54,499 bases of DNA, from positions 1 through 54,499 of IMG/VR virus record IMGVR_UViG_3300031951_000212; one strand, given 5' to 3'. The notes beneath the pieces are model-generated. The model was not told the DNA's origin and did not search any database. It saw nothing but the letters and a program-made list of their open reading frames with translations. Source of the DNA: a virus. Below are positions 6,092 to 52,319 of this stretch, piece after piece. Positions within the stretch are counted from its first letter, which is position 1. Each line of letters begins with the position of its first letter. A program made the translations under genes and the position numbers.

Positions 6092-6097
6092 TATTTA
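6092..6097 (-). promoter_or_regulatory. Late-promoter-like TAAATA before gene 5287-6081
   Basis: GTAAATA, 10 nt before the ATG at 6081; no Shine-Dalgarno. Marks this gene as late, unlike the flanking early operons. Confidence 0.45.
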
Positions 6098-6168
6098 CAA
6101 ACAGTAAAGTCTTTTATTGGAAAAAATTAATTTATTGAAAAATACTAAAATTATATTTAATATATTCT

Positions 6169-6186
6169 AATCTAAATGTTTAGATT
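6169..6186. promoter_or_regulatory. Short perfect palindrome AATCTAAA-TG-TTTAGATT
   Basis: 8-bp arms with a 2-bp centre in the 186-bp gap between genes. It is too A+T-rich to be a good terminator and could be an operator. To its right three ACTTTTT tracts are spaced exactly 21 bp apart (6212, 6233, 6254). Confidence 0.35.
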
Positions 6187-6267
6187 GAAAATTGATTAAC
6201 CCCCTATTTTAACTTTTTTGTCTATTTTAATAACTTTTTTGGTATTTTTAAGTACTTTTTTATACTT

Positions 6268-6552
6268 TTATGAGTAAAAAATAGCACTTTTTGTACCATA
6301 ATAAATTCTTTTTAGTATCTCCGTGAACCTTGAAACGGGATTATCTTCCTTTCCGTTCCATGCAAAATAGAATGGTTCGTATGCCTTAATTGAAGGAATA
6401 ATAAAATACTTCCAGTTCTCTTTTAGAATCGAATACCTTCTCTTCCATTCGGGCATTGGGTAATTTGGATTTGTGATATGTTCAATCGGAGGCATGTACA
6501 TACATTCCTGCCTTTTCATTTCTCTTACATAATCGTTTGGATCAATTTTCAT
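6268..6552 (-). CDS. Hypothetical early protein (94 aa)
   Basis: Starts MKIDPNDYVREMKRQECMYMPPIEH at 6552 and overlaps the preceding gene by 11 nt. Rich in aromatic residues (WKRRYSILKENWKYFIIPS, YEPFYFAWNGK), which suggests a compact helical protein. No family recognised. Last gene of the small leftward operon starting at 7879. Confidence 0.65.
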   Translation of the reverse strand: MKIDPNDYVREMKRQECMYMPPIEHITNPNYPMPEWKRRYSILKENWKYFIIPSIKAYEPFYFAWNGKEDNPVSRFTEILKRIYYGTKSAIFYS

Positions 6553-6763
6553 AGTTATACTTTGTTGCCTCCTCGTTGAATCCTTCCATTATAAGATAGT
6601 TTTTAATATATTCCAGATCTTTTTTACTGATCTTGTTTTTACAATCAACCTCGACCTTTTGTTCCTCCGGTGTCAAACTTTTGATCTTGATATTCATTTT
6701 GATCCCTCGAATCTCAATGTTTCTCAAGGTATAGATTTTTTTGGGTGCTGGATTCTTTTTCAT
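6542..6763 (-). CDS. Hypothetical early protein (73 aa)
   Basis: ATG at 6763 overlaps the TGA of the upstream gene as ATGA, supporting this start over the internal Met at 6697. Basic N-terminus (MKKNPAPKKIY), then a strand and helix segment KIKSLTPEEQKVEVDCKNKISKK... No family recognised. Confidence 0.6.
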   Translation of the reverse strand: MKKNPAPKKIYTLRNIEIRGIKMNIKIKSLTPEEQKVEVDCKNKISKKDLEYIKNYLIMEGFNEEATKYNYEN

Positions 6764-7335
6764 TTTCTTTTTGATTCTCCTTCAAATCTTTTTAATCGAC
6801 AGACACAATACTTGCTAATAGAGCATCTATCGCACGTTCTATCATTATTTAGATATATATCCGGTCTTAAACAAGAACTGGTATGTTTTTCACAGGCTTC
6901 TTTATTGTCTTTCAAGTAAATTGATAATCTTGGTTTATTGAAATCGATCTTGGGTGTGTTTCTTCTTATCTCTTCAATCTCTTCTTCAATTTCCCATTGC
7001 GTCTTAACCTTCTTAACAACTGGTTTCTTTTCCTTTGGTTCAATTAACAGTCTACAATCCTTACACCTTGTAGTGTTTAACATCTTTTCAATGTCTTTTC
7101 CTGCTTTTTCAAATGCATGTTTGAACCCCACGCCTTTTAACTTTGCCGTGTAACTTTTACATTCACAACAGAATATCTCATTGTATGGTAGCTTTTTATG
7201 TTCCTTGTAGTGTTCCAACCACAATGACATACCATCAAATTGGTTCTTTGGTATCTTTTTTGTTTTTTTATTCTTTAGGTTCTTATCTTCAACCTTAGAT
7301 TTGCGTGTTCCTTTTTTATTGATACTATTTCGCAT
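6760..7335 (-). CDS. Cys-rich, probably zinc-binding early protein (191 aa)
   Basis: A very basic N-terminal tail (about 30 residues, many Lys) precedes FCCECKSY and, about 35 residues later, CKDC, a likely zinc-ribbon pairing. The C-terminus carries a second cluster CDRCSISKYCVC. The middle has a charged helix (WEIEEEIEEIRR). It may bind nucleic acid; the family is not recognised. The start at 7335 overlaps the upstream gene by 61 nt, and an internal Met (7230) would avoid this, so the N-terminus is uncertain. Confidence 0.6.
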   Translation of the reverse strand: MRNSINKKGTRKSKVEDKNLKNKKTKKIPKNQFDGMSLWLEHYKEHKKLPYNEIFCCECKSYTAKLKGVGFKHAFEKAGKDIEKMLNTTRCKDCRLLIEPKEKKPVVKKVKTQWEIEEEIEEIRRNTPKIDFNKPRLSIYLKDNKEACEKHTSSCLRPDIYLNNDRTCDRCSISKYCVCRLKRFEGESKRK

Positions 7336-7917: not shown

Positions 7918-9078
7918 TTATCTAGTTTGTGTCTGTGGCTGTGTGGTTGTGGTTGGTGCTTGTGTTTGTTGTTGGGTTGGTGCTTGAGCTTGGGGTTGTG
8001 TTTGAGTCTGTTGTTGAGGCTGTGCTGGTTGTTGTTGTTGGTCTTGTTGTTGAGGCGAAGCCTTCGCCTTCTTATTGGTTATTGGTATTGCAACCCAACT
8101 TGGAAAACTTGTACCTTGACCAACCCATGCAGTATCAGTAAACTTTCCTCTTCCATTAACAACAAGAAGTTTATCTTTTGGTTTCTTTTCACCGGTTTCG
8201 GGTTGCTCTTGTGGTTGTTCCTGTTGCTGTGGTTGTGGTTCTGGTTGTTCCTGTTGCTGTGGTTGTGGTTCTGGTTGTTGTGGTTGCTCTTGTGGTTGCG
8301 TAGCTTGATTCATCCACCTGTTATTAAGTTGTCCTGGTGCAGGATTTGGTTTTCCGTTTGGCATTATCCATTCATCAGTTTCTGCATTATAGGTGTTATC
8401 TCCAACACTTGTGCTAATAACTGTTCCATCTGGTGGTTTTGGTAATGAATCTAATTGTTGTGGAACTGCTTGCTCACTATTTGGATTACGAGGTTTTCTT
8501 GTTCTTTTACCTTTTCTTTTTTCTTCTAATATAGAATTGAAAAGAACAAAAAATTTATTAAAGTTTTCTGGTATAACTACATTTGATAATTTTCCAAGCT
8601 CTTTTGCCTTGTCTCTTGTGACCAATTGCCACTTAGTTGGATTGTTGTTTGTCAATACAAACAAAAAATCTGACTTCTTGGCAGTTTCTGACTTAGAAAA
8701 CAATTCAACTGGAACCTCTTTCTTGCTGTTTATTGCATTTTCAAGTTCTGGCGAAACGTGTATTAACTGTATTGAAAAAGACCCATCATTCTTAATATCA
8801 ATTATCTTACCAACAATATTTGAGTTTCCAAGCATGTTGATATACTGTCCTTTTTTTGGTGGGTTATCTTTACCAAGAACTAAACTCTTTGAATCTTTTT
8901 GTTTTTGTAATGCATCTATTGCAGTACCGGCTTGTTTGAATAGTTGACTTGGATCTTCAGCTGTTTTGATCGCAGTCCCTATTCCACCCGCTGTACTCGC
9001 AGCTACATTTTTTAATCCCGATAAAAAACCTCCTTGTTCATTTAAGGTTGAATCTATTAACTGGTCAAATTTCGCCAT
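7918..9078 (-). CDS. Putative capsid-internal protein with Gln/Pro-rich tail (386 aa)
   Basis: The leader MAKFDQLIDSTLNE-QG has LNE at 12-14, matching the gp21 cleavage rule, and resembles gp22 and the T4 capsid-targeting peptide. After it come a Gly/Ala helical segment, a soluble domain (about 75-190), a basic patch EEKRKGKRTRKPR (about 185-197) and two Gln/Pro-rich tracts (about 255-295 and 345-386) separated by a folded-looking GRGKFTDTAWVGQG segment. The tracts are DNA-level CAG/CCA-type repeats. TAAATA 7 nt before the ATG marks it as late. Inferred head-internal protein; function unknown. Confidence 0.55.
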   Translation of the reverse strand: MAKFDQLIDSTLNEQGGFLSGLKNVAASTAGGIGTAIKTAEDPSQLFKQAGTAIDALQKQKDSKSLVLGKDNPPKKGQYINMLGNSNIVGKIIDIKNDGSFSIQLIHVSPELENAINSKKEVPVELFSKSETAKKSDFLFVLTNNNPTKWQLVTRDKAKELGKLSNVVIPENFNKFFVLFNSILEEKRKGKRTRKPRNPNSEQAVPQQLDSLPKPPDGTVISTSVGDNTYNAETDEWIMPNGKPNPAPGQLNNRWMNQATQPQEQPQQPEPQPQQQEQPEPQPQQQEQPQEQPETGEKKPKDKLLVVNGRGKFTDTAWVGQGTSFPSWVAIPITNKKAKASPQQQDQQQQPAQPQQQTQTQPQAQAPTQQQTQAPTTTTQPQTQTR

Positions 9079-9085: not shown

Positions 9086-9091
9086 TATTTA
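9086..9091 (-). promoter_or_regulatory. Late-promoter-like TAAATA before gene 7918-9078
   Basis: CTAAATA, 7 nt before the ATG at 9078; no Shine-Dalgarno. Confidence 0.5.
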
Positions 9092-9214: not shown

Positions 9215-9220
9215 TAAATA
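9215..9220 (+). promoter_or_regulatory. Late-promoter-like TAAATA before gene 9228-9482
   Basis: AATAAATA (9213-9220), 7 nt before the ATG at 9228 on the plus strand. It helps choose 9228 over the upstream ATG at 9180. Confidence 0.5.
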
Positions 9221-9227: not shown

Positions 9228-9482
9228 ATGGATTCATCTATAAATTTTATATATACATACTCAGCTGGAACAAAAACCATTGATGGTGTATTTCCAGTTT
9301 ATAATTTGGATGGTGCAATCGTTTGTAAAAAAACTGAATTGACCATAAATAAAAACAAAAAAAGAATCGAATTGCTTGATGAGGGAGATCCTGTTATTTT
9401 ATTAGCACAAGAAACAAATGAAGATGAAACCTTCGAATTAATAGCAACAATAAGTGGCATTGACTATAATATTTACATTTAA
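9228..9482 (+). CDS. Hypothetical small late protein (84 aa)
   Basis: Start chosen at 9228 (MDSSINFIYTYSAGTKTIDG) because AATAAATA lies 7 nt upstream. An in-frame ATG at 9180 would place that element inside the gene. Strand-rich: INFIYTYSA, GVFPVYNLDGAIVCKKTELTI, DPVILLAQ, FELIATISGIDYNIYI. It looks like a small beta-barrel or a capping domain. First gene of the rightward structural block and divergent from the capsid-internal gene. No family recognised. Confidence 0.6.
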   Translation: MDSSINFIYTYSAGTKTIDGVFPVYNLDGAIVCKKTELTINKNKKRIELLDEGDPVILLAQETNEDETFELIATISGIDYNIYI

Positions 9483-9485: not shown

Positions 9486-9491
9486 TAAATA
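9486..9491 (+). promoter_or_regulatory. Late-promoter-like TAAATA before gene 9498-10322
   Basis: GTAAATA, 6 nt before the ATG at 9498, overlapping the end of the preceding gene. Confidence 0.45.
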
Positions 9492-9497: not shown

Positions 9498-10322
9498 ATG
9501 GCTGGAGTAAAAATCAATAATTTAGAAGAAGCAGATGGAATTCAAGAAACTGATTCTATCATAATTGCAAGATCAAGCAACACAAATAAAATAACAGGTA
9601 AAACATTTATTCAAAATTTCTCAGGTGTAAAAAATGCCACAAATTACGGAAATGGTATTGGTGTATATAAGGGAAGTGTTACATCAACAAACGGTGCCGT
9701 TGGAACGAGTTTACAGTTTAACACGTTGAGTGGTAATAATGGAATTGATGTAAATCTTTCAGGAAGTTTAATTAATATATCTTTAAGTAATAATAGTTTA
9801 AACCTTTTAAATTCTCAAGTAACGACATCAAAAATTTCAGACGGTGCTGTTACTCCCGCAAAACAATCGGGTACTTTGTGTGCAGTTTCAACAAAAAATG
9901 GAACACAGGCAATTCCTGCTTATGCGAGAAGTGTAATAACTGGTTTATCTGCTACAGTAACACCGGTATCTATTGGAGCAAAGGTTTTATTAACTGGTTC
10001 GTTATCAATTGGAGGTATCTATGCTGGTATAATATTAAAAAGAACAATTGGTGGTGTTACAACAGATTTAGCGGTTGGTGTAGATTCTGATCAAATGTCA
10101 CAAGTTACATTTGCTGTAATTAGAAACAGTGGTGATTATAATTCACCACCAACACCAATAAATTATATCGACACTCCTAACACAACATCTCCAGTAACAT
10201 ATAGTGTTGATGTTGTATCAACATGGGGATATATTACATATGTCAACAGAGGTTACTCAGAAGGAAATGCTAGTTATTCCAGTAGGACAATTTCACAAAT
10301 AGCTGCAATAGTTTTACCATAA
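9498..10322 (+). CDS. Tail-fibre-like virion protein (274 aa)
   Basis: The first 40 residues (MAGVKINNLEEADGIQETDSIIIARSS) are a common N-terminal module of phage fibre or appendage proteins. A Ser/Asn/Gly-rich shaft region follows, and then TTSKISDGAVTPAKQSG (about 110-126), a short module that also appears in the fibre genes at 42698 and 44368. The C-terminal 140 residues form a strand-rich domain ending YSSRTISQIAAIVLP, probably the trimer tip. The receptor is unknown. It sits just upstream of the vWA/LamG protein. Confidence 0.55.
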   Translation: MAGVKINNLEEADGIQETDSIIIARSSNTNKITGKTFIQNFSGVKNATNYGNGIGVYKGSVTSTNGAVGTSLQFNTLSGNNGIDVNLSGSLINISLSNNSLNLLNSQVTTSKISDGAVTPAKQSGTLCAVSTKNGTQAIPAYARSVITGLSATVTPVSIGAKVLLTGSLSIGGIYAGIILKRTIGGVTTDLAVGVDSDQMSQVTFAVIRNSGDYNSPPTPINYIDTPNTTSPVTYSVDVVSTWGYITYVNRGYSEGNASYSSRTISQIAAIVLP

Positions 10323-13300: not shown

Positions 13301-15676
13301 GTTGGTGTTAAAATACAGGAAGAAGGAATAGCATATCAACTTGCAAGTAACAATTCATGTTATTTTAACCTTCAAAAATATCTTTTTAATTTAGATGGAA
13401 ATAAACAAAAATTTTCTGAATACATAAGTTATAGACTTGGTAATCAAACACCAATAAAACCATCTTGGAATAAAGCAATTAGAAATGCCGATGGTGCTTG
13501 GGTATCAACCAATGAGGCATCAGACATGATATTAACACCCGGTGATTATTTGATTTATGTGCACCGAGACAATGTTAATTATACTTCAGTAACTGACAAT
13601 ATTATATTTTCGACACCTTCTATAAGTTTTACAATAAACGTAAAGTTAGATGGTTGGGACTATGATAATAGTTATTTTTCTTTAACTGCGGTTGGCCCAG
13701 ATTATGGAGCAAAACCATATTGGGCTAAAGTTTATACTGATATAAATCTTGAAAAAAATTTCGTAAAAGAAACTTCAAAATCCGGTGGTAACGTTCATTA
13801 CTTAGATGAATATGTTCCAGTTTATCAAGCAGATGTAAGTGATATGGTATTGGGTACTGGTGACTTTTTAAGATATAAAAGATTATTAAATAAAAATTTA
13901 AACTGGACACAACCATTAACATTTAATGTTTTATTAGAATCTAATACATGGAAAAAAATAAAAATATCAAAAGAATATTCAAATATACAAAAATTAGTTA
14001 ATAGAAATAAATTAGATGTAATTGGTGAACCTTTAAATGATCCAAGTGATATTATATTAGAAAGCTATTCATCTTTCAATCCTGCATTTTATAATTATTA
14101 TGCTAGAAATCAATTTACATATACCCAAGATTTGTTTAAAGTAAAAAGATGCGCAGAAAGTTTTGTAACATATAATACTGCAATTGAAATAAATCCAGCA
14201 GAACCTTATTTCAACATGTTGAATACTCAATATCCAACTGTTGCAACTGTATCGTTCCCATCAAAATCTTATACAACAAAAGAAATTGGTGATTATATGA
14301 TACCAGAAAACTTAGGTGTCAGTACATATAGAGGTCGTGGATATGATATAAAAATAGACAACGATTCTCTCACTAACATAGATGCAATGAGTGCTGAAAG
14401 AATGTTCAGTGATATTGGAAAGTATGGTTCACGTCAAAGAGGATTAACAAAAAAAGACCAAATAACACCAGTTAAAATTGAAAATATTGATAATAGTTGG
14501 ATATATGAGCCTTATGGTAGAAATGAACGTTCGGGTGTTATAGTTGAAACAAAAGAAAATCAAAAATTTACACCATATCAAACAACATATGAATCTGAAA
14601 ATGAAAACAGATATGGTGTTAGCAGACAAAACGACATTTTCCAATTTTGGTCCCCACCAATTCCAGCAACTTGGAATGAACCAGAAAAGTATCCTTTAAC
14701 ATTTAGAAAAGAAGTATTGCCATTATCATACGAAGAAAGAAAAAATTTATTGTTGGTAGATTCTGGACAATTAAATAAATGGAGAACCGATATTTTTGGA
14801 AATGATTACGGTTTATACAAACAAATTATACCATCTTCGTTTGAAAATTTATTAGTTTGGTATAAATCAACAAACGGTACATTGTCTTCAAATGGTTCAT
14901 TAACAGATTACAATGGTGTGGTAAACACTTGGCTTGATAAAAGTGGAAACGGAAAAAATTTGCTTAGTTTCTCTGCGACGTTAAGTTCAAATTTTTCACG
15001 TACAACAACAGCACCAATACTTTCTGCAAACGTAATAAATGGAAAACCGGCATTGTATTTTGATGGAACTGCATGTCTTTATACAATGTTTAATTTGATT
15101 GAGAGTAAAGAATTATCAGTTTATATTGTCGGTAAATTTTTAAATACCAATACAACATTTTCAAATGACAACTATCAGCCAATGTTGGCTATATCTTTAT
15201 CATCTGAAAACCAAAATTTTACAACTCAATATTTTGATAATCAAACATTTGCATTTTTCCAAAAAAATAATAAAAATGCATTTGGATTTGGCGCACCGTT
15301 TTTTGATTCAACTGCACCGTTAATTAGTGGTACACCAATTGTTTTTGATAACAGCAGAGATTCCAGATTGGACTTAGAAAATTCAAACGAAGGATTCAAG
15401 GTTTTTGAATTTATATTTGACCAACCTTCTGCAACTTCTTATGTAAACAAACAATATTATCTTGGTTCTGTTGATATAAACAAATATTTAGATAAACCTT
15501 TATATGCAACTGCTGGTGAAAACCAAACCGGTGGATTGTGGGTTGGGTCCTATGGTGGTGGTCAGTTCCCAACAAAGTGCTACATTGCCGAAATATTCAT
15601 ATTTGACAGAGCATTATCAAATAGAGAAAGATTGGATATGGAGAATTATTTAGGTGCGGAATATAGATTATTTTAA
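10352..15676 (+). CDS. Giant virion protein with vWA and LamG-like domains (1774 aa)
   Basis: Residues about 810-1030 read as a von Willebrand factor A fold: LVVLVDTSHT (MIDAS-type DxSxT), AKVSVVTFGT, TNILDALQVAEYIL, KKIIIFTNG (Asn where Asp is usual) and GVKIFVADVG. The C-terminal 280 residues (from about 1497) form a concanavalin/LamG-like domain with VNTWLDKSGNGKNL, GKPALYFDG and EIFIFDRALSNRERLDMENYLG. A region near 325-350 (ESSLLESGATAG...FLSD) recurs in the 1148-residue protein at 19289. Probably a tail or appendage protein; adhesion is inferred from the domains. Its end overlaps the convergent gene at 15668 by 9 bp. Confidence 0.7.
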   Translation: MSIQLNTITPLSYNNWLSNQTTLNPNTAQLKYVEYLNDWYRVQGLKKNEATNQLKNDYIQLIKDLSFLFGKKEKDQFLADVDVTKDEELVFSIPFFAKKLKEIAILLSKKRETIKEAKLKYNLIGSNNGLERLMYEYILKGFTRSDEGISQIPTYHLSNLFPELSTVKDNFYIEVEELHDPNTYFDSDPSVSINEYVDVQDLVNQIPFEGLSEDEIIGLITTRYLPRVAPTPLSNLFNNYLQDANIIDTTVSLSSLSGLIFNQVNASVKYMGEPRYGLTAIRLKDVYLPDKEISINMPQGNSWFLWPSGDRVLNDLEFNNEFVPIKLNESSLLESGATAGSSIFLSDLIFTEKNGMLEGAWLHGTEVLIIEDNMEINLERVSFRDFIFPFVGFNVTPKGNVFDGYSIKDTIFETFNLFDPLKKRELLEAYFTSNLPNSGSHIIYLNQTSLVDAGAYAGKYPDESDCLTSKYKVNQLPNTYTDDTNGPLDESFLFKFNETDLVIKQGLINIQWPIQTFDNKSDLPVSISLKSDTCLPVILGEIDTAKEMIGATAGISFDDADIIYKLSNDTDEPIEAAWLGGQSINNLDLNYKSINIYNTSAVKCSVYNEGVIQPSLTFKANPSEKISFVWCDVDTPADEVFKYVEHSSNCLYGKNKHDYYADQDYRNPNPLFFKNHWSECTCKSVNFSPIGHKGNKFIDYNASTDFLFADPDGAGVDFAINTWSDTRNLNYEKSPQFGFFKLSDSANDSPIGWGEGTWKTPNEKPFILKTGRRYTYCRSSFRKNKSATNPSPYLIVKYPYKQITGYLNLQNNLDLVVLVDTSHTQKFDIDDVKTIVSDLTKRILNDKNKVAKVSVVTFGTYSSIISFLTTDQYLLDLYISAIGVSDEPEYYKTNILDALQVAEYILYTNTEVNATTNLKDLCSNLNFIIGNPLLKSKYTNVPFLNGDKKIIIFTNGIESINIGLGLPQAEKLKQNGVKIFVADVGVKIQEEGIAYQLASNNSCYFNLQKYLFNLDGNKQKFSEYISYRLGNQTPIKPSWNKAIRNADGAWVSTNEASDMILTPGDYLIYVHRDNVNYTSVTDNIIFSTPSISFTINVKLDGWDYDNSYFSLTAVGPDYGAKPYWAKVYTDINLEKNFVKETSKSGGNVHYLDEYVPVYQADVSDMVLGTGDFLRYKRLLNKNLNWTQPLTFNVLLESNTWKKIKISKEYSNIQKLVNRNKLDVIGEPLNDPSDIILESYSSFNPAFYNYYARNQFTYTQDLFKVKRCAESFVTYNTAIEINPAEPYFNMLNTQYPTVATVSFPSKSYTTKEIGDYMIPENLGVSTYRGRGYDIKIDNDSLTNIDAMSAERMFSDIGKYGSRQRGLTKKDQITPVKIENIDNSWIYEPYGRNERSGVIVETKENQKFTPYQTTYESENENRYGVSRQNDIFQFWSPPIPATWNEPEKYPLTFRKEVLPLSYEERKNLLLVDSGQLNKWRTDIFGNDYGLYKQIIPSSFENLLVWYKSTNGTLSSNGSLTDYNGVVNTWLDKSGNGKNLLSFSATLSSNFSRTTTAPILSANVINGKPALYFDGTACLYTMFNLIESKELSVYIVGKFLNTNTTFSNDNYQPMLAISLSSENQNFTTQYFDNQTFAFFQKNNKNAFGFGAPFFDSTAPLISGTPIVFDNSRDSRLDLENSNEGFKVFEFIFDQPSATSYVNKQYYLGSVDINKYLDKPLYATAGENQTGGLWVGSYGGGQFPTKCYIAEIFIFDRALSNRERLDMENYLGAEYRLF

Positions 15677-43937: not shown

Positions 43938-43943
43938 TATTTA
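43938..43943 (-). promoter_or_regulatory. Late-promoter-like TAAATA before gene 42698-43930
   Basis: GAATAAATA, 7 nt before the ATG at 43930; overlaps the stop of the preceding gene. Confidence 0.5.
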
Positions 43944-44367: not shown

Positions 44368-45804
44368 TTATCTAAAAAATGCTAAATATATTCCAACAGA
44401 ATCGTCATAACTATTGGCCCATGTACCAAGATAAATTCTAGATGTTGTTCTATTTCCAAGTCTATTGTCTTCTTGAACATTCCAAGCAGTATAATTAGTT
44501 TCATTATATTGAATACCGCCAAGTTGTACATAATATAAATCTTCAAATGGAGTATCAAAATATACTACATATCTTCCAGCTGCTGTTCTAGTTATATTTG
44601 ATATATTATAAGATGATCTTATACCATCTGATGAATAACTCCAACCAGCAACTGTTCCAGTTCCAACTAAATTTACAGTGGATGTTGCATTTTGTGTATA
44701 CTGAATTCTTGCTTGTGTTCCACTTATTATTTCTATTACTTCAGCTTGTACTCCTTTATTAGCAACCGCAGGTATTCCACCTAGTGAATTATATGCATTT
44801 GCAACATTAATATAAAAAGTAAGACCAAGTTGAAAATTTTGACTCCAACCAGAACCTGTAAATATTCCGGTACTTTGACCGGCTTGTGTTGTTATGCTAT
44901 ATGTGGTTCCTGCTACCGAATTACCTATCCATGCTCCGTTGAAATTAACCCATGCTTTACAAGTCGTAACACTTCCGCGAATGTCATTACCCCTCATGTC
45001 TAATGGAACGCTCATATCAAAGGAAGATGTGTCACTTCTTTGCATGATATTCCAAATTGGTCTACCACCACCAGTTGAATTGGTTCCATATAAAACAAGA
45101 TTATTATCAGTTTGACATGCTAATCTTGGATTTGTTCCACTTCCATCTGTGAATCTTAACGCTGTGTTATTACTACCAAGTCTTATGCTGCCTCTTACGT
45201 CTAGTTTATCTAGTGGTGTACCACCACCAATGCAAGCATTTCCAGCAGAATCTATTTTAACCGTGTTTGTAGCAGCACCAATTGGTCCATTCCATATATT
45301 AAATGAATTATCAGTTGCTTCTTTTGTGACATGGAATCCAGTTGAATTATTAGCTCCAAGCTGTATTGCAGCATAATTTGAATAATTCAAATGTAAGTTT
45401 GTTGCTGGTGAAGAATGTCCTAATGCTACGTTACTACTGGTATTCCAAACTGGAGCACCTGTGCTTAATTTATCGGGAGTAACGGATCCTGCTCCAAGTT
45501 TTGCATTTGTAACTCCACCATCATTTGGAACTACTGAATTTATAACATATGGTGAATTATTATAAATTACAACAACCTTTGCTCCACTGTCAGGAGCAGA
45601 TGTAAATGTAATCGTATTATTGTTTACTGTATAATCTACAACTGGTTCTTGTACTGCACCATCCAAAGTAACGATTAGTTCATTTGCATTTGTTAGTCCC
45701 GTTGAACCAGCTATTGTAAAAGAAACAGTAGAACCATTTCCGGTTAAAACGGTTTTCGTTGGAGTTATTGGAAAATTATCTGCTACAATTCTTGCTAATG
45801 ACAT
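44368..45804 (-). CDS. Tail fibre protein (478 aa)
   Basis: N-terminal module MSLARIVADNFPITPTKTVLTGNG followed by strand-rich sequence with YTVNNNTITFTSAPDSGAKVVVIY (about 58-81), as in many short tail fibres. GGVTNAKLGAGSVTPDKLS (about 95-113) is the shared fibre module, and KIDSAGNACIGGGTPLDKLDVRGSI another common repeat type. The C-terminal domain (GIRSSYNISNITRTAAGRYVVYFDTPFEDLYYVQLGG) is a widespread trimeric tip fold. Followed directly by the chaperone-like and adhesin genes, so the three probably form one host-recognition unit. Confidence 0.75.
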   Translation of the reverse strand: MSLARIVADNFPITPTKTVLTGNGSTVSFTIAGSTGLTNANELIVTLDGAVQEPVVDYTVNNNTITFTSAPDSGAKVVVIYNNSPYVINSVVPNDGGVTNAKLGAGSVTPDKLSTGAPVWNTSSNVALGHSSPATNLHLNYSNYAAIQLGANNSTGFHVTKEATDNSFNIWNGPIGAATNTVKIDSAGNACIGGGTPLDKLDVRGSIRLGSNNTALRFTDGSGTNPRLACQTDNNLVLYGTNSTGGGRPIWNIMQRSDTSSFDMSVPLDMRGNDIRGSVTTCKAWVNFNGAWIGNSVAGTTYSITTQAGQSTGIFTGSGWSQNFQLGLTFYINVANAYNSLGGIPAVANKGVQAEVIEIISGTQARIQYTQNATSTVNLVGTGTVAGWSYSSDGIRSSYNISNITRTAAGRYVVYFDTPFEDLYYVQLGGIQYNETNYTAWNVQEDNRLGNRTTSRIYLGTWANSYDDSVGIYLAFFR

Positions 45805-45810: not shown

Positions 45811-45816
45811 TATTTA
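45811..45816 (-). promoter_or_regulatory. Late-promoter-like TAAATA before gene 44368-45804
   Basis: GGTAAATA, 6 nt before the ATG at 45804. Confidence 0.5.
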
Positions 45817-45833: not shown

Positions 45834-46760
45834 TCAAAAGTATTTTTTAATGTTCAAAATACAGCAAAAGAAGTTTATTTCGTGATCAAGAACAAAATTG
45901 TCTCTATAAATGTGTTCTCCGAGATCAAGCATTATTGTTTTTTTCTTTTCTTCAGAAAGATTTGAATCGTATATAATTTCAAATAATTCTCTTAAAAGGT
46001 TCTGGTAATTAGATCCAAAGTTTTTTTCCTCGGAAATAACAACTTTTCTTATTTCTAATGGACTTATATTTGAACAAAGGGAAGAAAAAATATTATCTGC
46101 CAAGTTTTTAACTTGGTTTGTTTCTTTTATTGTTAAAACTCCACTAACAGAAAATTTTTGTAAATCATTGATAATTCTTCGTATATCTGGAAAGTTATTG
46201 GTTATGTATTCTACCAATCTTTGCTTTTGGTCTTCCTCTACTTTAATATTTTCCGACTTTAATACAAAACAGCACCTTTTGATACAATCATCCAAAGTTG
46301 GAATTATGTTAAAAAGTAAACATCTGGAATGTAATGGTTCAATTATCTTCTTAAAATAGTTTGCAGTTAGAATAAAACGAGTGGTGGATGCATATTCCTC
46401 CATTACGTTTCTCAGTATTCTTTGACTTTCACCAGATAACCCATCTGCCTCATCCAATATAATAACCTTCTTCTTTCCATCCAAAGAACGAGTCTGAGAA
46501 AAAGATATTACCTTGTTTCTAATAGTATCTACACCGTTTTCATCCGATGCATTTATATAAAGATATTGACACTTTAATATGTCATTTACTATAATCTTGG
46601 CAAGCGATGTCTTTCCACCGCCAGCATTTCCATAAAACAACAAATGTGGGGTGTCATCATTTATTGATGAAAAGAACTCTCTATTGTCCGAAGACAATAC
46701 TAGTTCATTTAAATTTTTAGGGGCATATTTCTGAACCCACAAATCTTGATATCTGTTCAT
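45834..46760 (-). CDS. 44: Sliding-clamp loader large subunit gp44 (308 aa)
   Basis: AAA+ ATPase with the RFC-type layout: WVQKYAPKNLNELVL start, Walker A GNAGGGKT (44-51), Walker B VIILDEAD (99-106), sensor 1 in LTANY, and the SRC motif (145-147) with the arginine finger. Length is near T4 gp44 (319). With gp62 it loads the gp45 clamp onto primer-template DNA; in T4 the clamp also activates late promoters with gp55 and gp33. TTAAATAAAGG precedes the ATG, giving both a TAAATA and a weak AAGG. It lies among virion genes, unlike the T4 order. Confidence 0.9.
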   Translation of the reverse strand: MNRYQDLWVQKYAPKNLNELVLSSDNREFFSSINDDTPHLLFYGNAGGGKTSLAKIIVNDILKCQYLYINASDENGVDTIRNKVISFSQTRSLDGKKKVIILDEADGLSGESQRILRNVMEEYASTTRFILTANYFKKIIEPLHSRCLLFNIIPTLDDCIKRCCFVLKSENIKVEEDQKQRLVEYITNNFPDIRRIINDLQKFSVSGVLTIKETNQVKNLADNIFSSLCSNISPLEIRKVVISEEKNFGSNYQNLLRELFEIIYDSNLSEEKKKTIMLDLGEHIYRDNFVLDHEINFFCCILNIKKYF

Positions 46761-46764: not shown

Positions 46765-46770
46765 TATTTA
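46765..46770 (-). promoter_or_regulatory. TAAATA element before gp44
   Basis: TAAATA followed by AAGG and the ATG at 46760 (4-nt spacer). The AAGG may act as a weak Shine-Dalgarno; a late promoter here is uncertain. Confidence 0.3.
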
Positions 46771-46805: not shown

Positions 46806-46976
46806 TTAACCTTTCAGAAGTTCTTTTCCAGAAAATGAATTGTTAATTTCTCCCAATGTGTCATTTGGGTTTGGTGTTTTAACACCTTGATTCATTGAAA
46901 GCCAACTGATAAGCTCTTGAACTTTCTCATTATCAATATAAAATGTACCTACTCCTTGAATTGTTACTTGATTCAT
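46806..46976 (-). CDS. Small hypothetical protein (56 aa)
   Basis: Starts MNQVTIQGVGTFYIDNEK at 46976 and closes with TAA at 46806. Strand-turn-strand beginning, a helix VQELISWLSMNQG, then a polar tail ending FSGKELLKG. A perfect TATAAATA lies 5 nt before the ATG, the best late-promoter match in the window, which strongly supports the gene. The promoter lies back-to-back with the one for the terminase-like gene at 47015. Function unknown. Confidence 0.65.
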   Translation of the reverse strand: MNQVTIQGVGTFYIDNEKVQELISWLSMNQGVKTPNPNDTLGEINNSFSGKELLKG

Positions 46977-46981: not shown

Positions 46982-46989
46982 TATTTATA
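46982..46989 (-). promoter_or_regulatory. Perfect T4-type late promoter TATAAATA
   Basis: TATAAATA on the minus strand, 5 nt before the ATG at 46976, so transcription would begin about at the start codon. Confidence 0.6.
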
Positions 46990-46990: not shown

Positions 46991-46996
46991 TAAATA
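46991..46996 (+). promoter_or_regulatory. Late-promoter-like TAAATA before gene 47015-47491
   Basis: CTAAATA, 18 nt before the ATG at 47015 on the plus strand, adjacent to the divergent TATAAATA at 46982-46989. Confidence 0.4.
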
Positions 46997-47014: not shown

Positions 47015-47491
47015 ATGAGTGACGAAATCGATTCAATTATACAAGAACTTAAAGCAGATGAAATTGCACCAACGTTTTTAACAAGAAAGAAAGAACCAGA
47101 ATCTGAAAAACTCACAGATGAAAACGTAGGCGAATACGTATACAAAAAATCATCCGAATTAGTAGATTCTACTTTAAGTGCAGTACAGTCTTTGAAAGAC
47201 ACTGTATTAACAGGAAGCGATCCAAAAGAAATAGCTGCTCTATCTACTTTGATAAATGCTGCAACAAAAGCACTTGATCAACTTAATAAAATTAATCTTC
47301 AAAATAAACAAACTAAGAGCAATGAGGAAATGAAGAAACTTGAAATAGCAGCAAATAGCAAAAAACCAGTTCTTCCTAATACCACGAATGTTCTTATTGC
47401 AACAAGAGACGAAATAATGAATCAGTTGTTTGATAAACCAAGTAGAAGAGAAAAACTTCAATTGACAGATTCAGAAATTATTGAGCAATAA
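47015..47491 (+). CDS. 16: Probable small terminase subunit gp16 (158 aa)
   Basis: Layout matches gp16-type small terminases: acidic disordered start (MSDEIDSIIQELKADE), central helices (EYVYKKSSELVDSTLSAVQSLKDTV; EIAALSTLINAATKALDQLNKINLQNKQ) forming a likely coiled coil, then a short strand and a terminal helix (TTNVLIATRDEIMNQLFD). In T4, gp16 forms rings that recognise DNA and regulate the gp17 motor during packaging. No gp17 is in the window. It faces the capsid gene across a shared terminator, unlike the co-linear T4 order. Confidence 0.5.
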   Translation: MSDEIDSIIQELKADEIAPTFLTRKKEPESEKLTDENVGEYVYKKSSELVDSTLSAVQSLKDTVLTGSDPKEIAALSTLINAATKALDQLNKINLQNKQTKSNEEMKKLEIAANSKKPVLPNTTNVLIATRDEIMNQLFDKPSRREKLQLTDSEIIEQ

Positions 47492-47575: not shown

Positions 47576-49027
47576 TTAGAGGTATAAACGACCGTTGTCT
47601 TGAGCGACATTGGCAGTTCCAAGACCAGAAACGATGATAGTATGGTAGTATAAGTTAGCACCGAAGATATGATCAACAACACCGTAACGAGTCATAAGAC
47701 CTACTCTTGGCGAGAAGTCGTTAGGACCAATTGTGCGCTGGATCATAACTGGGATGTATGGGCAATATACAATACCTGTATCATAGTATTCTGTTCCTTT
47801 GTAACCTAAAAGAGCGTACTCCAAAGCTGCATTTCGCTGTCCGGCAAGATACTGAGCGTCTGTACGTGTGTCGCGGTAAACGGTGAAACGTCCACCCAAT
47901 GTACCAACTTTGGCAACGCCTGTTGGCTGGGTGTTAATGTTTCCGTTTACTGGCATCCACTGAAACTCGGGCAACATCTCAAGGATTGCGCAAACGCGAG
48001 GTGTAGCGATAATGAAATTAGCACTACCACGGCGGTTACGAATTGCGATGCGGTTAGCTTCGACAATTACCTTTGAGTAGAAGTCACGGTTTCTCTCACC
48101 CAACCAACGTGCGTCGGCTGACTGAGCGTACCAGAACGAGTATCCTGTTCCTTTACCAGCATTGAGACAGACTTGAATCATTCTGATAACCATTTCACGG
48201 TCGATTTCGGCCTGAATTTCATACGACATAGCGTTTGTTAATTCAGAGTCGATATCTAAACCATTCATGTTCTTCAAGTCTTGTTCGAGTTCAACAGACC
48301 AGCGAGCGGCGAGGCGGCGTGTACCGGCTTCGACTGCTGTCTTGCTGAATTCTACAGTAACTTGAGGAATGTTACCAGTCAACTCGAAATCTTTGAGCAT
48401 AGCAGCAACACCACGATCAGAACCAATGATTGAAAAATCATTATGGCCTGATAAGAATGTTGAGCTTGTTCCTGTGAATCGAGTATCCAAGTATTGATAG
48501 CCTAATTCGGCGTTGTCGGATTCTCTGCGGTCAAGACCGTTAGAACCAGATGTAGTGGAACCTGTGGCATAACCATCAAGTCCATTTGCACCGAGACTAT
48601 CTGCCTCATAGCGATAACGGAGAGCGAAAGCTAAACCGACTGGGCCACTCATTGGCTGTACGCCAACAATCTCATTTGTGATAAGCTCAGGGAAAGTTCT
48701 GCGAACCATTGGGATAAGAATCTTAGGTAAGCGAGAGTCTCCTGTTGCATATCTATCACCGGAAACCACATTGCCGTTGTTGCCGTAGATGTCTCCAGAT
48801 GCAGGGGATCCGAAAACCCCACCAGCACCAGCGACATTACTACCGGCTTCTTCAATACACCAGCGTTCTTGGTTTTCCATGAGGATTGCAGTAGTTAAAC
48901 GAGCATGTTCGTCTTCGATTGCAGAAACCTTATCGGAACTGTAATTGAGGACTGGTGCCCATTTTTCTACAAGCTGTTGGGCGCGTGAGCGATCAATGTA
49001 GCCTGTTGATGGATTAACTTTTCTCAT
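47576..49027 (-). CDS. 23: Major capsid protein gp23 (483 aa)
   Basis: Clear gp23: IGVQPMSGPVGLAFALRYRYEAD, RWSVELEQDLKNMNGLDIDSELTNAMSYEIQAEIDREMV, GTLGGRFTVYRD, YDTGIVYCPYIPVMIQRTIGPNDFSPRVGLMTRYGV. The N-terminal 60 residues are the pro-piece; CIEE followed by AGSN at 57-64 fits gp21 cleavage after Glu60 (T4 cuts after Glu65 in LTE-A). The mature protein forms the hexamers of the head. A strong AGGAG lies 9 nt before the ATG, and the gene is clearly more G+C-rich than its neighbours. Scaffold gp22 is 40 nt upstream. Confidence 0.95.
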   Translation of the reverse strand: MRKVNPSTGYIDRSRAQQLVEKWAPVLNYSSDKVSAIEDEHARLTTAILMENQERWCIEEAGSNVAGAGGVFGSPASGDIYGNNGNVVSGDRYATGDSRLPKILIPMVRRTFPELITNEIVGVQPMSGPVGLAFALRYRYEADSLGANGLDGYATGSTTSGSNGLDRRESDNAELGYQYLDTRFTGTSSTFLSGHNDFSIIGSDRGVAAMLKDFELTGNIPQVTVEFSKTAVEAGTRRLAARWSVELEQDLKNMNGLDIDSELTNAMSYEIQAEIDREMVIRMIQVCLNAGKGTGYSFWYAQSADARWLGERNRDFYSKVIVEANRIAIRNRRGSANFIIATPRVCAILEMLPEFQWMPVNGNINTQPTGVAKVGTLGGRFTVYRDTRTDAQYLAGQRNAALEYALLGYKGTEYYDTGIVYCPYIPVMIQRTIGPNDFSPRVGLMTRYGVVDHIFGANLYYHTIIVSGLGTANVAQDNGRLYL

Positions 49028-49067
49028 AATTTGTTCTCCTATGGATAGAATACGAATTAAAAAGGAA

Positions 49068-49964
49068 TTACTTCCTCATTAATTCATTCAGATATTCGTT
49101 AACAGGACCAAAGTCGCTGTCGATATTTGTAGCGGATTCTGTTACAACTTTTTGTGGAATAACTTTAGCATCACGGCTTACAGCCTTTTGCTTTGCTTCT
49201 TTCACAAGTTCAGTTGTAGCTTCTGATTCGCTACGTTCGAACATCTCAACAACATAGTTAAAATTCTCTTCAATATAAGAACCGTTCTTGTCGTTCAATA
49301 ACTTGAATATAAAGTCTTTTTTGACTGATGGCATTCCTTTAGTTTTTTCTTCTAAAAGGATATGTGATTCCATCTTATTAATCTTTTCTAAGAGAGTTTC
49401 ATTCTCTTTATAAGATTCATTCAATTTTTCCGAGAGTTCATCAATTTTTGTTTTACCAACGCTAATTGATTCTTTGATTGATGAATCAACAAAATCTCTG
49501 TCGATTCCAACCAACTCACGGATAGTATCAAGCTGTTTACGAGCATATGTGTTCGCAACAGCTTCTTCTAATTGTGTCTCTGGTAAAATTTTTTCCAGAT
49601 ACAAGTCCAAATAAGTGCTGACCTTTTCAACAATATTATTTGTAAAATCTTCGGCTTTTTCTGATAAAGCCTTTTTATAGAAACTAGAAATCATTTCTAA
49701 TTTTTGTGTATGATTTTCTGTAATGGCTTCAACAACTTTTTGTAATTTATCAGAATGGTCGCTGTCAATAGCTTCCAATAATTTTTCTAATTTACTAGCA
49801 TGATCATCATCTTGTTTTGAAAGAGCACTTTCAACTTCCAATTTTGTTCTTGATTCTACTTTTTCGTTTACAGCAGCTTCAAATGCTTCTGTGATTGCTT
49901 TTGCTGTTTCTTGATCGATTACGCTTTCATCGATTTGTTTAAGTATTTCAGAAAAATCTTTCAT
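49068..49964 (-). CDS. 22: Prohead scaffolding core protein gp22 (298 aa)
   Basis: Acidic, almost wholly helical protein with long heptad-like runs (HASKLEKLLEAIDSDHSDKLQKVVEAI), directly between gp21 and gp23 as in T4. N-terminus MKDFSEILKQIDE-SV carries an IDE site at 11-13, as for capsid-targeting peptides. Further LxE sites occur along the chain, fitting degradation by gp21 during maturation. It assembles the inner core on which gp23 polymerises. Confidence 0.8.
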   Translation of the reverse strand: MKDFSEILKQIDESVIDQETAKAITEAFEAAVNEKVESRTKLEVESALSKQDDDHASKLEKLLEAIDSDHSDKLQKVVEAITENHTQKLEMISSFYKKALSEKAEDFTNNIVEKVSTYLDLYLEKILPETQLEEAVANTYARKQLDTIRELVGIDRDFVDSSIKESISVGKTKIDELSEKLNESYKENETLLEKINKMESHILLEEKTKGMPSVKKDFIFKLLNDKNGSYIEENFNYVVEMFERSESEATTELVKEAKQKAVSRDAKVIPQKVVTESATNIDSDFGPVNEYLNELMRK

Positions 49965-49976: not shown

Positions 49977-49982
49977 TATTTA
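49977..49982 (-). promoter_or_regulatory. Late-promoter-like TAAATA before gp22
   Basis: GGTAAATA, 12 nt before the ATG at 49964. A GAAAGG stretch overlaps its 5' side but is about 20 nt from the start, too far for a Shine-Dalgarno. Confidence 0.4.
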
Positions 49983-50003: not shown

Positions 50004-50222
50004 TTACATTTTTTCTTTTTTAAAAACATCGGATGATTTTTCTTTTTTATCATCGCACTTTTCTTTTTTCTTCTTGTTCTTTGAAGAAACTTTTTCGTAT
50101 GTTTTCTTAATCTTTTGTTTTGTTTTTTCCTCAACGATTTTTTGCAAATCTTTATTTGCATCGGAAAATTTGTCTTCACAAAGATTTGTTAAAAATTTAG
50201 AGATGAGTTTTTTTAATTCCAT
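50004..50222 (-). CDS. Prohead core protein, gp67-like (72 aa)
   Basis: Starts MELKKLISKFLTNLCEDKFSDANKDLQKIVEEK, then a highly charged, Lys-rich tail with Asp/Glu (KNKKKKEKCDDKKEKSS). Position between gp21 and gp22, small size, helical start and low-complexity charged tail match the T4 core protein gp67 and its relatives. T4 gp67 has a more acidic tail, so the tail charge is atypical. It would be part of the scaffolding core and processed by gp21. Confidence 0.5.
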   Translation of the reverse strand: MELKKLISKFLTNLCEDKFSDANKDLQKIVEEKTKQKIKKTYEKVSSKNKKKKEKCDDKKEKSSDVFKKEKM

Positions 50223-50229: not shown

Positions 50230-50235
50230 TATTTA
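50230..50235 (-). promoter_or_regulatory. Late-promoter-like TAAATA before gene 50004-50222
   Basis: GATAAATA, 7 nt before the ATG at 50222. Confidence 0.5.
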
Positions 50236-50253
50236 TCTAATTAAATTTACAAA

Positions 50254-50925
50254 TTAAATAGTTTTTAATTTATTAATAAAATCAATTAAACACTCTTTTA
50301 AATATTGCTTCGAATTATGCTTAGGAAGATTTGAAATCTTCTTTTCAAAATTTTCATAAAATGGTTCTAATTCACCATTGTCACTTAAAACCCATTGCTT
50401 TGATTCTAATATACCATTTACAAATGCAGTTGGAACAGATGGGTCAGCAACAACATCAATTGCTACCAATCTAAAATCAGAAACCATTCCAACGCCACTC
50501 TTATTTGGTTCTACTCTACCAAGTGCTCTCGAAGAAACTCCAAGTTTAACACCGTCCATAATAAGTGATCTAACGATCTGTCCCATTGGGGTTGAAAGGA
50601 TTTTTGATGTTCCTTCAAAAATGTCGCCATTTTGTTTTAATTCTGTAACTAAATGACAAGCTCTTTCCAAATTAACTTCTGGTGAAGTTGGATGATTTAA
50701 TTCACCAGTTGCTCTATTGTTTACAATCATTTCAGAAGTATAACGATTAACTTCTTCAACCATTTGTTCTAGTGGGTAGACCCTGTTGTTTCTATTTGGT
50801 TTGTTTGCCATTAAGAATGGTCCTTTTACCTTTAATGTTGATGGAGCATTCCTATTTTGCTCCTCAACCAAATATTTTAATTCGTAACAAGGTGATTCGA
50901 CTAATAGATTATAAACATTGCTCAT
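50254..50925 (-). CDS. 21: Prohead maturation protease gp21 (223 aa)
   Basis: Peptidase U9/S80-type prohead protease. NRNNRVYPLEQM is the conserved entry. The catalytic His is in RATGELNHPTS (H78), the nucleophilic Ser in GVSSRALG (S131/S132), and VAIDVVADPSVPTAFV holds the third conserved segment. Length is near T4 gp21 (212). It cleaves after (I/L)xE in gp22, gp23 and internal proteins and then itself; LVE near residues 8-10 is a possible self site. Located next to gp67-like, gp22 and gp23. Confidence 0.9.
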   Translation of the reverse strand: MSNVYNLLVESPCYELKYLVEEQNRNAPSTLKVKGPFLMANKPNRNNRVYPLEQMVEEVNRYTSEMIVNNRATGELNHPTSPEVNLERACHLVTELKQNGDIFEGTSKILSTPMGQIVRSLIMDGVKLGVSSRALGRVEPNKSGVGMVSDFRLVAIDVVADPSVPTAFVNGILESKQWVLSDNGELEPFYENFEKKISNLPKHNSKQYLKECLIDFINKLKTI

Positions 50926-50959
50926 ATATGATGCTAATAATTACTTACACGGTACAATA

Positions 50960-51418
50960 TCAATTTAAATGTTTTTCATTTAAAATTATAAAAATATATC
51001 CCTTTCTTCCGCACCAATCTTTTGCTGCTGCCCATTTTGCACAATTTATTGCATATGTATAATTCTCATACAGAATAGTTTTTTGTTTTTTCTTTGCTGA
51101 TATAGTTGGTGGTTTAGTTTGTCTTTCTGGTTTTACTTCTATTAATAATTTTTTTATTTCTCCATCTTTTGATTTTAGTTTTGCAACAAGATCAACAAAA
51201 TATCTATGTGTTTTCCCGTCTTTAGGAGACACATAAGGTATTACAACTGATTCAGAAGACCAATTTAATACGTTTGGATTATTATCCAAATAACGAAAAG
51301 CTTTTAGTTCCAATGAACTTCTATATACTATAGCACCTCTACCAATATATTTATTTTTATTTTTTGGTTGATAAATTCCTTGTGTAAAATTTGGATTTTT
51401 TCTTGTGAATTTATTCAT
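50960..51418 (-). CDS. 4: Head completion nuclease gp4 (152 aa)
   Basis: RSSLELKAFRYLDNNPNVLNW, SESVVIPYVSPKDGKTHRYFVDL and LLIEVKPERQTKPP match T4 gp4 (50) across its whole length. The D...ExK arrangement (VDL, then IEVKP) is a PD-(D/E)xK nuclease core. In T4 gp4 completes the head after packaging, possibly trimming DNA before neck attachment. Its ATG touches the stop of the gp13-like gene, so neck and completion proteins are coupled. Confidence 0.85.
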   Translation of the reverse strand: MNKFTRKNPNFTQGIYQPKNKNKYIGRGAIVYRSSLELKAFRYLDNNPNVLNWSSESVVIPYVSPKDGKTHRYFVDLVAKLKSKDGEIKKLLIEVKPERQTKPPTISAKKKQKTILYENYTYAINCAKWAAAKDWCGRKGYIFIILNEKHLN

Positions 51419-52305
51419 TAGCCAATAAAGAATCTTGTTGGAGAACGATCTACCATATCGCTCATCAATTCTTTTTCAAGCTCGTCTTTTTCTTTTTCAC
51501 CTTGTCGTAACAAATCAGCAGCATTAACTGTTTGTCCTCCAAATAAATTTGTTCCAGAATATTTTCCACGAACATGTCCGATTGTTATTTTTGTCAATGC
51601 CAAAGTATAACGATATACCCAAAGTTGGGACACCAAATATTTTATTGGTTTTTGCATTTTACAGCCAATCAAACCAAAATACGTTTGTGCTTTACTTGGT
51701 TCTGGAATAATTTTTAAAATTTGTGTATCTGGATCAAATCTTAAATATGGTGTAAGTGCCAACATTTTTTCTCTTGTATCCAGCCAGTTTTTTAGTGCAT
51801 ACCAAGTAACTAAATCATATCCAACATTACCAAGTAAGTGTCCGAAATATGCCTGTTGAGCAATCGTGTGTTCAATTGTGAAAAGAGTATTGACACCAGA
51901 ATTATTTCCTTCATTGAAAGAAAATACATCAATAACTCTTCTGTAATCATCCATGTCAAAATCAACACCACCACTTAAATTTGGCATTAAACTATCTGGA
52001 TTTGAATTAAACATTTCGGGTGAAGTGTTAAACAATCTTCCAATTGGAAGACCATATCCACTGATATATAAATCTGATCTAAAAATTAAATACTCTTCTG
52101 TTTCTCCTGCAAATTTTGTAAAATATTCAATAGCAATATCAATTAATTCATAAATCTGTTCACTGCTTATTTCAATTTGAACAAGAGGCTCTCCCAAGGT
52201 TCTCCTAATTCTTTGTGCCAAGTGATCATAACTTTTAATCTGTGAATTAAAAGTAGTACTACCATGAAAAGAATTAGGTAAAACGGGTTGGGTTGGATAA
52301 GACAT
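51418..52305 (-). CDS. 13: Neck protein, gp13-like head-tail connector (295 aa)
   Basis: The segment LAQRIRRTLGEPLVQIEISSEQIYELIDIAIEYFTKFA (about 29-66) has the RRLG.P.(V/I)xI...QIYD.ID.A...F pattern of T4-type gp13 neck proteins. Length is close to T4 gp13 (309). The middle has an Asn-rich loop and then TPYLRFDPDTQILKIIPEPS. The charged C-terminus (KEKDELEKELMSDMVDRSP) is helical. It would bind the portal after packaging together with gp14. A perfect TATAAATA lies 6 nt before its ATG. Neighbours gp4 and the head genes agree. Confidence 0.6.
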   Translation of the reverse strand: MSYPTQPVLPNSFHGSTTFNSQIKSYDHLAQRIRRTLGEPLVQIEISSEQIYELIDIAIEYFTKFAGETEEYLIFRSDLYISGYGLPIGRLFNTSPEMFNSNPDSLMPNLSGGVDFDMDDYRRVIDVFSFNEGNNSGVNTLFTIEHTIAQQAYFGHLLGNVGYDLVTWYALKNWLDTREKMLALTPYLRFDPDTQILKIIPEPSKAQTYFGLIGCKMQKPIKYLVSQLWVYRYTLALTKITIGHVRGKYSGTNLFGGQTVNAADLLRQGEKEKDELEKELMSDMVDRSPTRFFIG

Positions 52306-52311
52306 ATATTA

Positions 52312-52319
52312 TATTTATA
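52312..52319 (-). promoter_or_regulatory. Perfect T4-type late promoter TATAAATA before gp13-like gene
   Basis: TATAAATA, 6 nt before the ATG at 52305, overlapping the end of the upstream gene. Confidence 0.6.

Follow-up and report, generated by a model that had tools for sequence, protein, structure and literature searches.

The TAAATA boxes that stand just upstream of many start codons in the window (the whole 54,499-nucleotide stretch of viral DNA analysed, from a relative of phage T4) are probably late promoters of the phage T4 type, with a TAARTA core read by the sigma factor gp55; RNA would start at or near the AUG, and the mRNAs would be leaderless or nearly so. In the proposed mechanism, host RNA polymerase carrying the phage-encoded gp55 would read the TAARTA boxes, with a gp45-type clamp as the likely activator. 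Compared with T4 or cyanophages, the core would lie about 20 nt nearer the start codon, and for most box-led late genes transcription would begin from the AUG or 0–3 nt before it. The resulting late mRNAs would be translated without a Shine-Dalgarno (SD) sequence, genes internal to late operons being reached via read-through and coupling. The exception would be gp23, the capsid gene, with an upstream promoter, a leader and an SD sequence.

Boxes in the window

All 19 TAAATA boxes that an earlier, sequence-only reading had placed before start codons on both strands were found again with the spacers it had claimed, 13 of them at 4–8 nt. On the plus strand, such closely spaced boxes are located at 9215–9220 (spacer 7, ORF 9228–9482) and 9486–9491 (spacer 6, ORF 9498–10322); both are retained, with unchanged spacers, in the related genome G001. 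On the minus strand they are found at 9086–9091 (spacer 7, ORF 7918–9078), 16551–16556 (spacer 8, ORF 16129–16542; retained in G001 and G004, spacer 6), 24257–24262 (spacer 6, GTG-start ORF 23459–24250; TAAGTA with spacer 5 in G001), 28804–28809 (spacer 6, ORF 24289–28797, tail-fibre-like with RCC1-like repeats; retained in G001 with spacer 10), 29235–29240 (spacer 8, ORF 28810–29226; retained in G001 with spacer 11 and G005 with spacer 10), 43938–43943 (spacer 7, ORF 42698–43930) and 45811–45816 (spacer 6, tail fibre ORF 44368–45804). The minus-strand box at 46765–46770 (spacer 4), before the gp44 clamp loader gene, has no promoter-spaced counterpart in five relatives and is probably a chance occurrence. 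It is followed, on the same strand, by boxes at 46982–46987 (spacer 5, ORF 46806–46976; part of a full TATAAATA at 46982–46989, not retained in the G005 and G004 orthologues), 50230–50235 (spacer 7, ORF 50004–50222; retained in G001 and G003 with spacer 6 and G004 with spacer 7) and 52312–52317 (spacer 6, gp13 homologue; part of TATAAATA at 52312–52319, with TAAGTA at spacer 7 in G001, G003, G005 and G004).

The remaining six boxes have longer spacers. Those on the minus strand are located at 6092–6097 (spacer 10, ORF 5287–6081), 22747–22752 (spacer 11, ORF 19289–22735; retained in G001 with spacer 8 and in G005 and G004 with spacer 6), 35810–35815 (spacer 13, ORF 29266–35796; retained in G001 with spacer 12 and in G005 and G004 with spacer 9) and 49977–49982 (spacer 12, gp22 scaffold gene). 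The last is missing from the closest relative, G001, is retained in G003 (spacer 11) and G005 (spacer 13), and reads TAAGTA in G004 (spacer 17). Two are on the plus strand, at 42152–42157 (spacer 12, ORF 42170–42688; retained in G001 with spacer 9 and G003 with spacer 12) and 46991–46996 (spacer 18, ORF 47015–47491; TAAGTA in G001 with spacer 10 and G003 with spacer 20).

It is position, not abundance, that is special about TAAATA in the window. The genome has an A+T content of 69%, and window-wide the hexamer is not over-represented (112 copies versus 132 expected). At spacers of 3–20 it precedes 18 of 34 starts, where the genome rate predicts 0.6. When compared to 2000 dinucleotide shuffles of the 30-nt regions that precede starts, 12 boxes are observed at spacer 4–8 (shuffle mean 1.15, maximum 6) and 18 of the 34 starts carry one at spacer 4–18 (mean 3.4, maximum 11). 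The T4 late motif invoked in the sequence-only reading holds for this enriched core but not for the full octamer TATAAATA, which occurs 6 times in the window versus 11.8 expected. The first TA of the octamer is poorly kept, position −13 not being conserved and position −12 being A in 104 of 189 cases in clade I and 42 of 65 in G007. The true motif is TAARTA, not the full T4 octamer. TAAGTA copies had been overlooked, for example on the minus strand at 42097–42102 (spacer 8), before the gp25 homologue (41582–42088), and at 50942–50947 (spacer 16), before the gp21 protease gene (50254–50925).

Specificity and conservation in relatives

The pattern extends to five relatives. Among 901 genes, TAAATA is present at spacer 4–8 before 147, versus 20.5 in shuffled sequences, and TAAGTA before 41, versus 4.9. 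None of the 17 other one-base variants shows a comparable excess at this spacing in the same genes, the next being TATATA with 26 versus 17, and there is no enrichment of AAAATA, TAAAAA or TTAATA. At spacer 4–13, TAARTA precedes 246 of 903 starts, but only 9 of 3052 internal in-frame ATGs. Twelve of 14 boxes are retained in G001. Among orthologues the spacer drifts while the box stays, as for gp25, with spacers of 8, 8, 13, 11, 11 and 5.

Late and early genes

Boxes precede 33 of 56 virion genes and 5 of 49 replication (early) genes (p=1.7e-7). When only genes with an upstream gap of more than 12 nt or a divergent neighbour are compared, the difference persists, with 28 of 42 late genes versus 5 of 28 early genes (p=7.5e-5); an equal frequency before early genes had been named beforehand as the outcome that would speak against late promoters. 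The box is scarce where the upstream gene overlaps (11 of 195) and frequent at gaps of 16–40 nt (67 of 134). About a quarter of all genes bear a box, and it is absent from 14 of the 42 gap-matched late genes.

Shine-Dalgarno sequences and the capsid gene

Box-led genes do lack an SD sequence, as had been noticed from the sequence: the SD core is found before 19 of 904 starts, versus 13 of 901 in a control window. The AGGAG reported before the box-less capsid gene is likewise present, at 49036–49040 on the minus strand, upstream of the gp23 major capsid gene (47576–49027); no box lies within 300 nt of this gene. Only the capsid gene departs from the background level of SD sequences. A more far-reaching proposal, that this T4-superfamily lineage gave late expression over to leaderless mRNAs with gp23 as the sole SD-led, leadered gene, appears rather doubtful; if it were true, phage bS21 or bS21-poor ribosomes could split translation between the capsid and all other virion proteins.

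Late transcription proteins

A search for gp55 and gp33 homologues, which the sequence-only reading had suggested, was successful for the former. The late sigma factor gp55 was detected in G001, G003, G005 and G007 by similarity to PHROG 234 (E to 3e-27) and to the solved structure of T4 gp55 (7d7c, E 6e-11), and the protein of the relatives keeps Y97 and T99, pocket residues named for gp55 (PMC7892883). For gp33, a small, fast-evolving protein, neither PF16805 nor the cyanophage gp33 gave a match. A gp45-type clamp was detected through PHROG 223 (E 8e-12 in G007), with homologues by sequence in other relatives, while the Pfam model for the gp45 C-terminus gave no match. Both gp55 and gp45 were detected in relatives only, the loci being outside the 54-kb fragment.

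Box spacing and the predicted RNA start

The spacer has its mode at 6 in the clade of the window and at 5 in the G007 clade, with a sharp drop below 4–5; the first T of the box is thereby placed 11–12 nt before the start codon. In T4, a cyanophage and an equally A/T-rich pelagiphage, boxes are mostly 14–39 nt from the ATG (mode 27–29 in T4, about 15–38 in S-SM2 and mostly 15–20 in Mosig, GC 0.325). Rhodothermus phage RM378 does not share a box at the spacing seen here. Since the T4 late box occupies positions −13 to −6 (PMC2988020), the leader length equals the spacer minus 5. With this geometry, RNA would start at the AUG or at most about 3 nt from it, and spacing and T4 geometry together strongly suggest leaderless late mRNAs. 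For spacers of 10–18, leaders of 5–13 nt are predicted. At the predicted start (offsets 6–8, in an A/T-rich flank) the base preference is weak, and the purine signature is weak and differs between clades. A divergent gp55 could have a start site unlike that of T4. Between −80 and −21 upstream of box-led genes, no second motif was detected.

Alternative explanations

TAARTA could be a late promoter from which gp55 starts RNA elsewhere, or the mRNAs could be read-through products processed later, in both cases with ordinary leaders. Some box-led genes do have spacers of 10–18, transcription of late operons would continue through genes without a box, and gp23 would carry a leader. However, RNA cannot start downstream of the AUG; given the many genes with spacers of 4–6, the start can thus be no more than about 6 nt past the box, and box-led genes are devoid of a second motif further upstream. 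We regard ordinary leaders as unlikely. Even less probable is that TAARTA is not a promoter but a late-gene-specific translation element of the mRNA, read for instance by ribosomes containing phage bS21. The motif does occupy the ribosome-binding position, bS21 genes were located in three relatives, and late ribosome retuning is proposed for such phages, predicted to infect Bacteroidetes, in a report on bS21-encoding myoviruses (PMC9723584). Against this, the spacing drifts between orthologues, the box matches the T4 late core, gp55 genes are present, and without this motif as promoter no late promoter would be detectable in the phages.

A general A/T-rich translation signal of the host, with Kozak-like adenines, had been offered as a rival by the sequence-only reading. 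Flavobacterium prefers A at −3, −6, −12 and −13 (PMC6847099), and 69% A+T is in keeping with such a signal, but it is highly improbable here, being incompatible with the rarity of the box before the replication genes of the same genomes. Furthermore, enrichment extends to TAAGTA but to none of AAAATA, TAAAAA and TTAATA, and Mosig, with the same GC content, does not show such a pattern. As to the host itself, the Bacteroidetes primary promoter TAnnTTTG is not enriched, which neither favours nor excludes a Bacteroidetes host; bS21 similarity points to no single host, with mixed solved-structure matches and one cyanobacterial match (37%) in a genome scan. Finally, chance occurrence of the boxes in an A/T-rich genome would agree with a window-wide TAAATA count no higher than expected, but is ruled out by the position-specific excess, far over the shuffles, and by conservation among relatives.

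Comparison with known systems

T4 is the textbook model of late transcription, and late promoters had been taken to lie at a distance from the start that lets a ribosome-binding site fit in between. A late promoter re-spaced so as to remove the leader, in many uncultured phages and before dozens of genes, would offer a natural set for studies of leaderless translation and makes a clear, testable prediction. A literature search largely confined to journals outside subscription found no earlier report of re-spaced leaderless late promoters. In the Bacteroidetes species studied, leaderless transcripts are rare, amounting to 5.5% of mRNAs in F. psychrophilum (PMC9723704), and in B. thetaiotaomicron about 3.7% of 5′ UTRs are shorter than 10 nt (PMC7366714).

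The boxes resemble T4 late promoters (TATAAATA; gp55/gp33/gp45) in their core, their late-gene bias, the A/T-rich start region and the lack of a detectable second upstream motif; relatives also encode gp55 and a clamp of the gp45 type. They differ in that the octamer is reduced to TAARTA, the box is 5–6 nt from the AUG (mostly 27–29 in T4), an SD sequence is lacking and gp33 was not found with PF16805 or cyanophage gp33. With the cyanophage and pelagiphage late promoters (NATAAATA; S-PM2, S-SM2, Mosig) they share a late box and the company of T4-superfamily virion and replication genes; gp55 is present in cyanophages, as in the relatives here. The boxes of those phages, however, are 15–38 nt from the start, often with an SD sequence in between. 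The bS21-encoding myoviruses (PMC9723584) are likewise SD-poor and A/T-rich, and three relatives encode bS21, although the available part of that account describes no late promoters or leaders, and in G001 the bS21 gene sits elsewhere. The closely spaced boxes are also similar to those of TA-led leaderless bacterial genes, in which a −10-type box has its first T about 11–12 nt before the start codon, a position taken as a mark of leaderless genes (BMC Genomics 2011, PMC3160421); unlike in those genes, the box here is a predicted site for a phage late sigma factor, mainly before the late genes of one phage lineage.

Gene content of the fragment and its relatives

The window, a complete IMG/VR virus record of 54,499 bases, is a fragment of a T4-related myophage genome and encodes homologues of gp4, gp6, gp13, gp21, gp22, gp23, gp25 and the clamp loader gp44. 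Among annotated phages, cyanophages come nearest, with about 35% identity in gp23 and gp44; its closest kin are all uncultured contigs, with gp23 identities of up to 88%. Five of these relatives were analysed: G001 and G003 (211 kb each), G007 (230 kb), G005 (126 kb) and G004 (112 kb). Genes were called by our own codon-score method, with starts chosen without use of the upstream sequence; start-codon errors are expected in a few genes, which would blur a peak in box-to-start spacing, not create it.

The gp44 gene (45834–46760) is located within the structural cluster, flanked by a tail-fibre gene and gp23, outside any replication block. Amid the tail genes, a Dps-like starvation-inducible protein (PHROG 858) is encoded at 15668–16132, and the tail-fibre-like protein encoded at 24289–28797 ends in repeats like those of RCC1, the regulator of chromosome condensation. 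In region 1–5000 the G+C content reaches 0.41, above the remainder, and convincing long genes are not seen; this region may be of different origin or non-coding.

A conserved box close to the start codons

All 19 TAAATA boxes listed before start codons by the sequence-only reading, and their spacers, were correct on rechecking the window. TAAATA is not above chance frequency across the window as a whole; at spacers of 3–20 nt it precedes 18 of 34 window genes, versus 0.6 expected at the genome rate. When the 30-nt upstream region of each gene was shuffled in 2000 runs, boxes at spacers of 4–18 nt averaged 3.4, with a maximum of 11, against 18 observed. The same concentration near starts is present in all five relatives.

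At spacers of 4–8 nt before 901 genes, the count of TAAATA is 147 against an expectation of 20.5, and that of TAAGTA 41 against 4.9, with no comparable excess for the other 17 one-base variants, the next being TATATA (26 versus 17.3) and TAATTA (23 versus 15.4). The enriched late-gene motif is TAARTA, and the strong enrichment of these two sequences only argues for a protein-recognised site, not for A/T-richness. TAARTA lies 4–13 nt upstream of 246 of 903 starts, compared with 9 of 3052 internal in-frame ATGs. The preceding base (T4 position −12) is preferentially A (104/189 in the clade of the window, 42/65 in G007), and position −13 shows no conservation. The share of TAAGTA among boxes is 27% in the window's clade but 3 of 65 in G007, a difference that suggests a changed gp55 specificity at −8.

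Association with late genes

Late and early genes were classed by similarity to proteins of T4 and cyanophage S-SM2. TAARTA at spacers of 3–18 nt precedes 33 of 56 virion genes; for replication or nucleotide genes the figure is 5 of 49 (p = 1.7e-7). With both sets limited to genes with an upstream gap above 12 nt or a divergent neighbour, the counts are 28/42 and 5/28 (p = 7.5e-5); the motif is not equally common before early genes, in keeping with the late role that the sequence-only reading had assigned to it. At these spacers it is absent before gp41, gp43, gp47, gp61, gp32, uvsX and uvsW in every relative analysed. The box is infrequent where a gene overlaps its upstream neighbour (11/195) and frequent at gaps of 16–40 nt (67/134).

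Between orthologues, the box is kept while the spacer drifts (8, 8, 13, 11, 11 and 5 nt for gp25; 16, 14, 13, 18, 17 and 5 for gp21). Among the window boxes, 14 stand before genes that have a G001 orthologue, and 12 of these are retained there, the exceptions being those of gp44 (46765) and gp22 (49977). The gp44 box, for which none of the five relatives shows an equivalent at promoter spacing, is probably a chance occurrence.

Late transcription machinery

The sequence-only reading had proposed looking for gp55 and gp33 elsewhere in the genome. The late sigma factor gp55 was found in four relatives (G001, G003, G005 and G007), outside the window fragment, while searches for the co-activator gp33 gave no detection. 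The gp55 homologue matches the late sigma factor group PHROG 234 and, at E = 5.7e-11, the T4 gp55 chain of a solved structure (7d7c). Tyr97 and Thr99, two residues of the pocket by which T4 gp55 reads the box in its structure (PMC7892883), are conserved, and His95 is replaced by Phe, as in the cyanophage. A gp45-type clamp is encoded in G007 (PHROG 223, E = 8e-12), also outside the window fragment, and has homologues by sequence in other relatives. No convincing second motif is present at −80 to −21 of box-led genes. If TAARTA did not serve as the late promoter, none would be recognisable in these gp55-encoding phages; the boxes are very likely gp55-type late promoters.

Shine-Dalgarno sequences and the capsid gene leader

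Shine-Dalgarno (SD) cores precede 19 of 904 starts, near the background given by a control window (13 of 901), bearing out the claim that these genes lack an SD. The capsid gene gp23, described as having an SD and no box, is the conserved exception: an SD is present in five of six genomes (and, when a less strict rule was applied to wider relatives, in 26 of 53), and five of six lack a TAARTA box within 300 nt. A hairpin often stands above the SD in the leader; leaders that contain a hairpin and, in most cases, a strong SD are found in the window (49028–49092, minus strand) and in L002, L007, L030 and L061, the other genes being without SD.

Three relatives, G003, G001 and G007 (loci L082, L083 and L084), encode a divergent ribosomal protein bS21, whose gene in G007 adjoins gp15, close to gp20. 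Ribosomes of F. johnsoniae without bS21 gain SD recognition (PMC9976891), and myoviruses with bS21 and predicted Bacteroidetes hosts have been described (PMC9723584). Any connection of the gp23 leader with these findings would be a guess.

The SD loss is compatible with a Bacteroidetes host; the Bacteroidetes-type TAnnTTTG promoter is not enriched, and bS21 similarity is uninformative on the host. Leaderless mRNAs account for 5.5% in F. psychrophilum (PMC9723704), and 5' UTRs below 10 nt for about 3.7% in B. thetaiotaomicron (PMC7366714). Leaderless late mRNAs would depart from the host's own practice if that host is a flavobacterium.

Spacing and comparison with known systems

In deduplicated sets, the commonest spacer is 6 nt in the window's clade (68 genes, with 32 at 5 nt) and 5 nt in the G007 clade (79 genes, with 51 at 6 nt), where just 4 of 660 genes have spacers below 4 nt. 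Since the T4 late box spans −13 to −6 (PMC2988020), the predicted leader is the spacer minus 5, or 0–1 nt at the modes. As RNA cannot start downstream of the AUG, the many genes with spacers of 4–6 nt alone place the start no further than about 6 nt past the box, which equals the T4 value. Base preferences at the predicted RNA start are weak. Most box-led late mRNAs are likely to be leaderless or to have leaders no longer than about 3 nt.

That phages can make leaderless transcripts is already known (remark in PMC5312081), and an in-silico survey calls leaderless genes by a −10-type box beginning some 12 nt ahead of the start codon (PMC3160421), the same kind of mark as the box placement found here. 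In Rhodothermus phage RM378 (L177), a different A/T motif, TATTTAAAATAAA, directly abuts the start codon of several genes. An earlier description of such promoter-start spacing in T4-like phages was not found in a literature search; relative to known late promoters, the spacing is the new aspect. Measured identically, late boxes lie mostly 27–29 nt from the start in T4 and 15–38 nt in cyanophage S-SM2, against modes of 6 and 5 nt in the two clades here, while in Pelagibacter phage Mosig, with a GC content (0.325) almost like that of the window, they are mostly 15–20 nt away, often with an SD in between.
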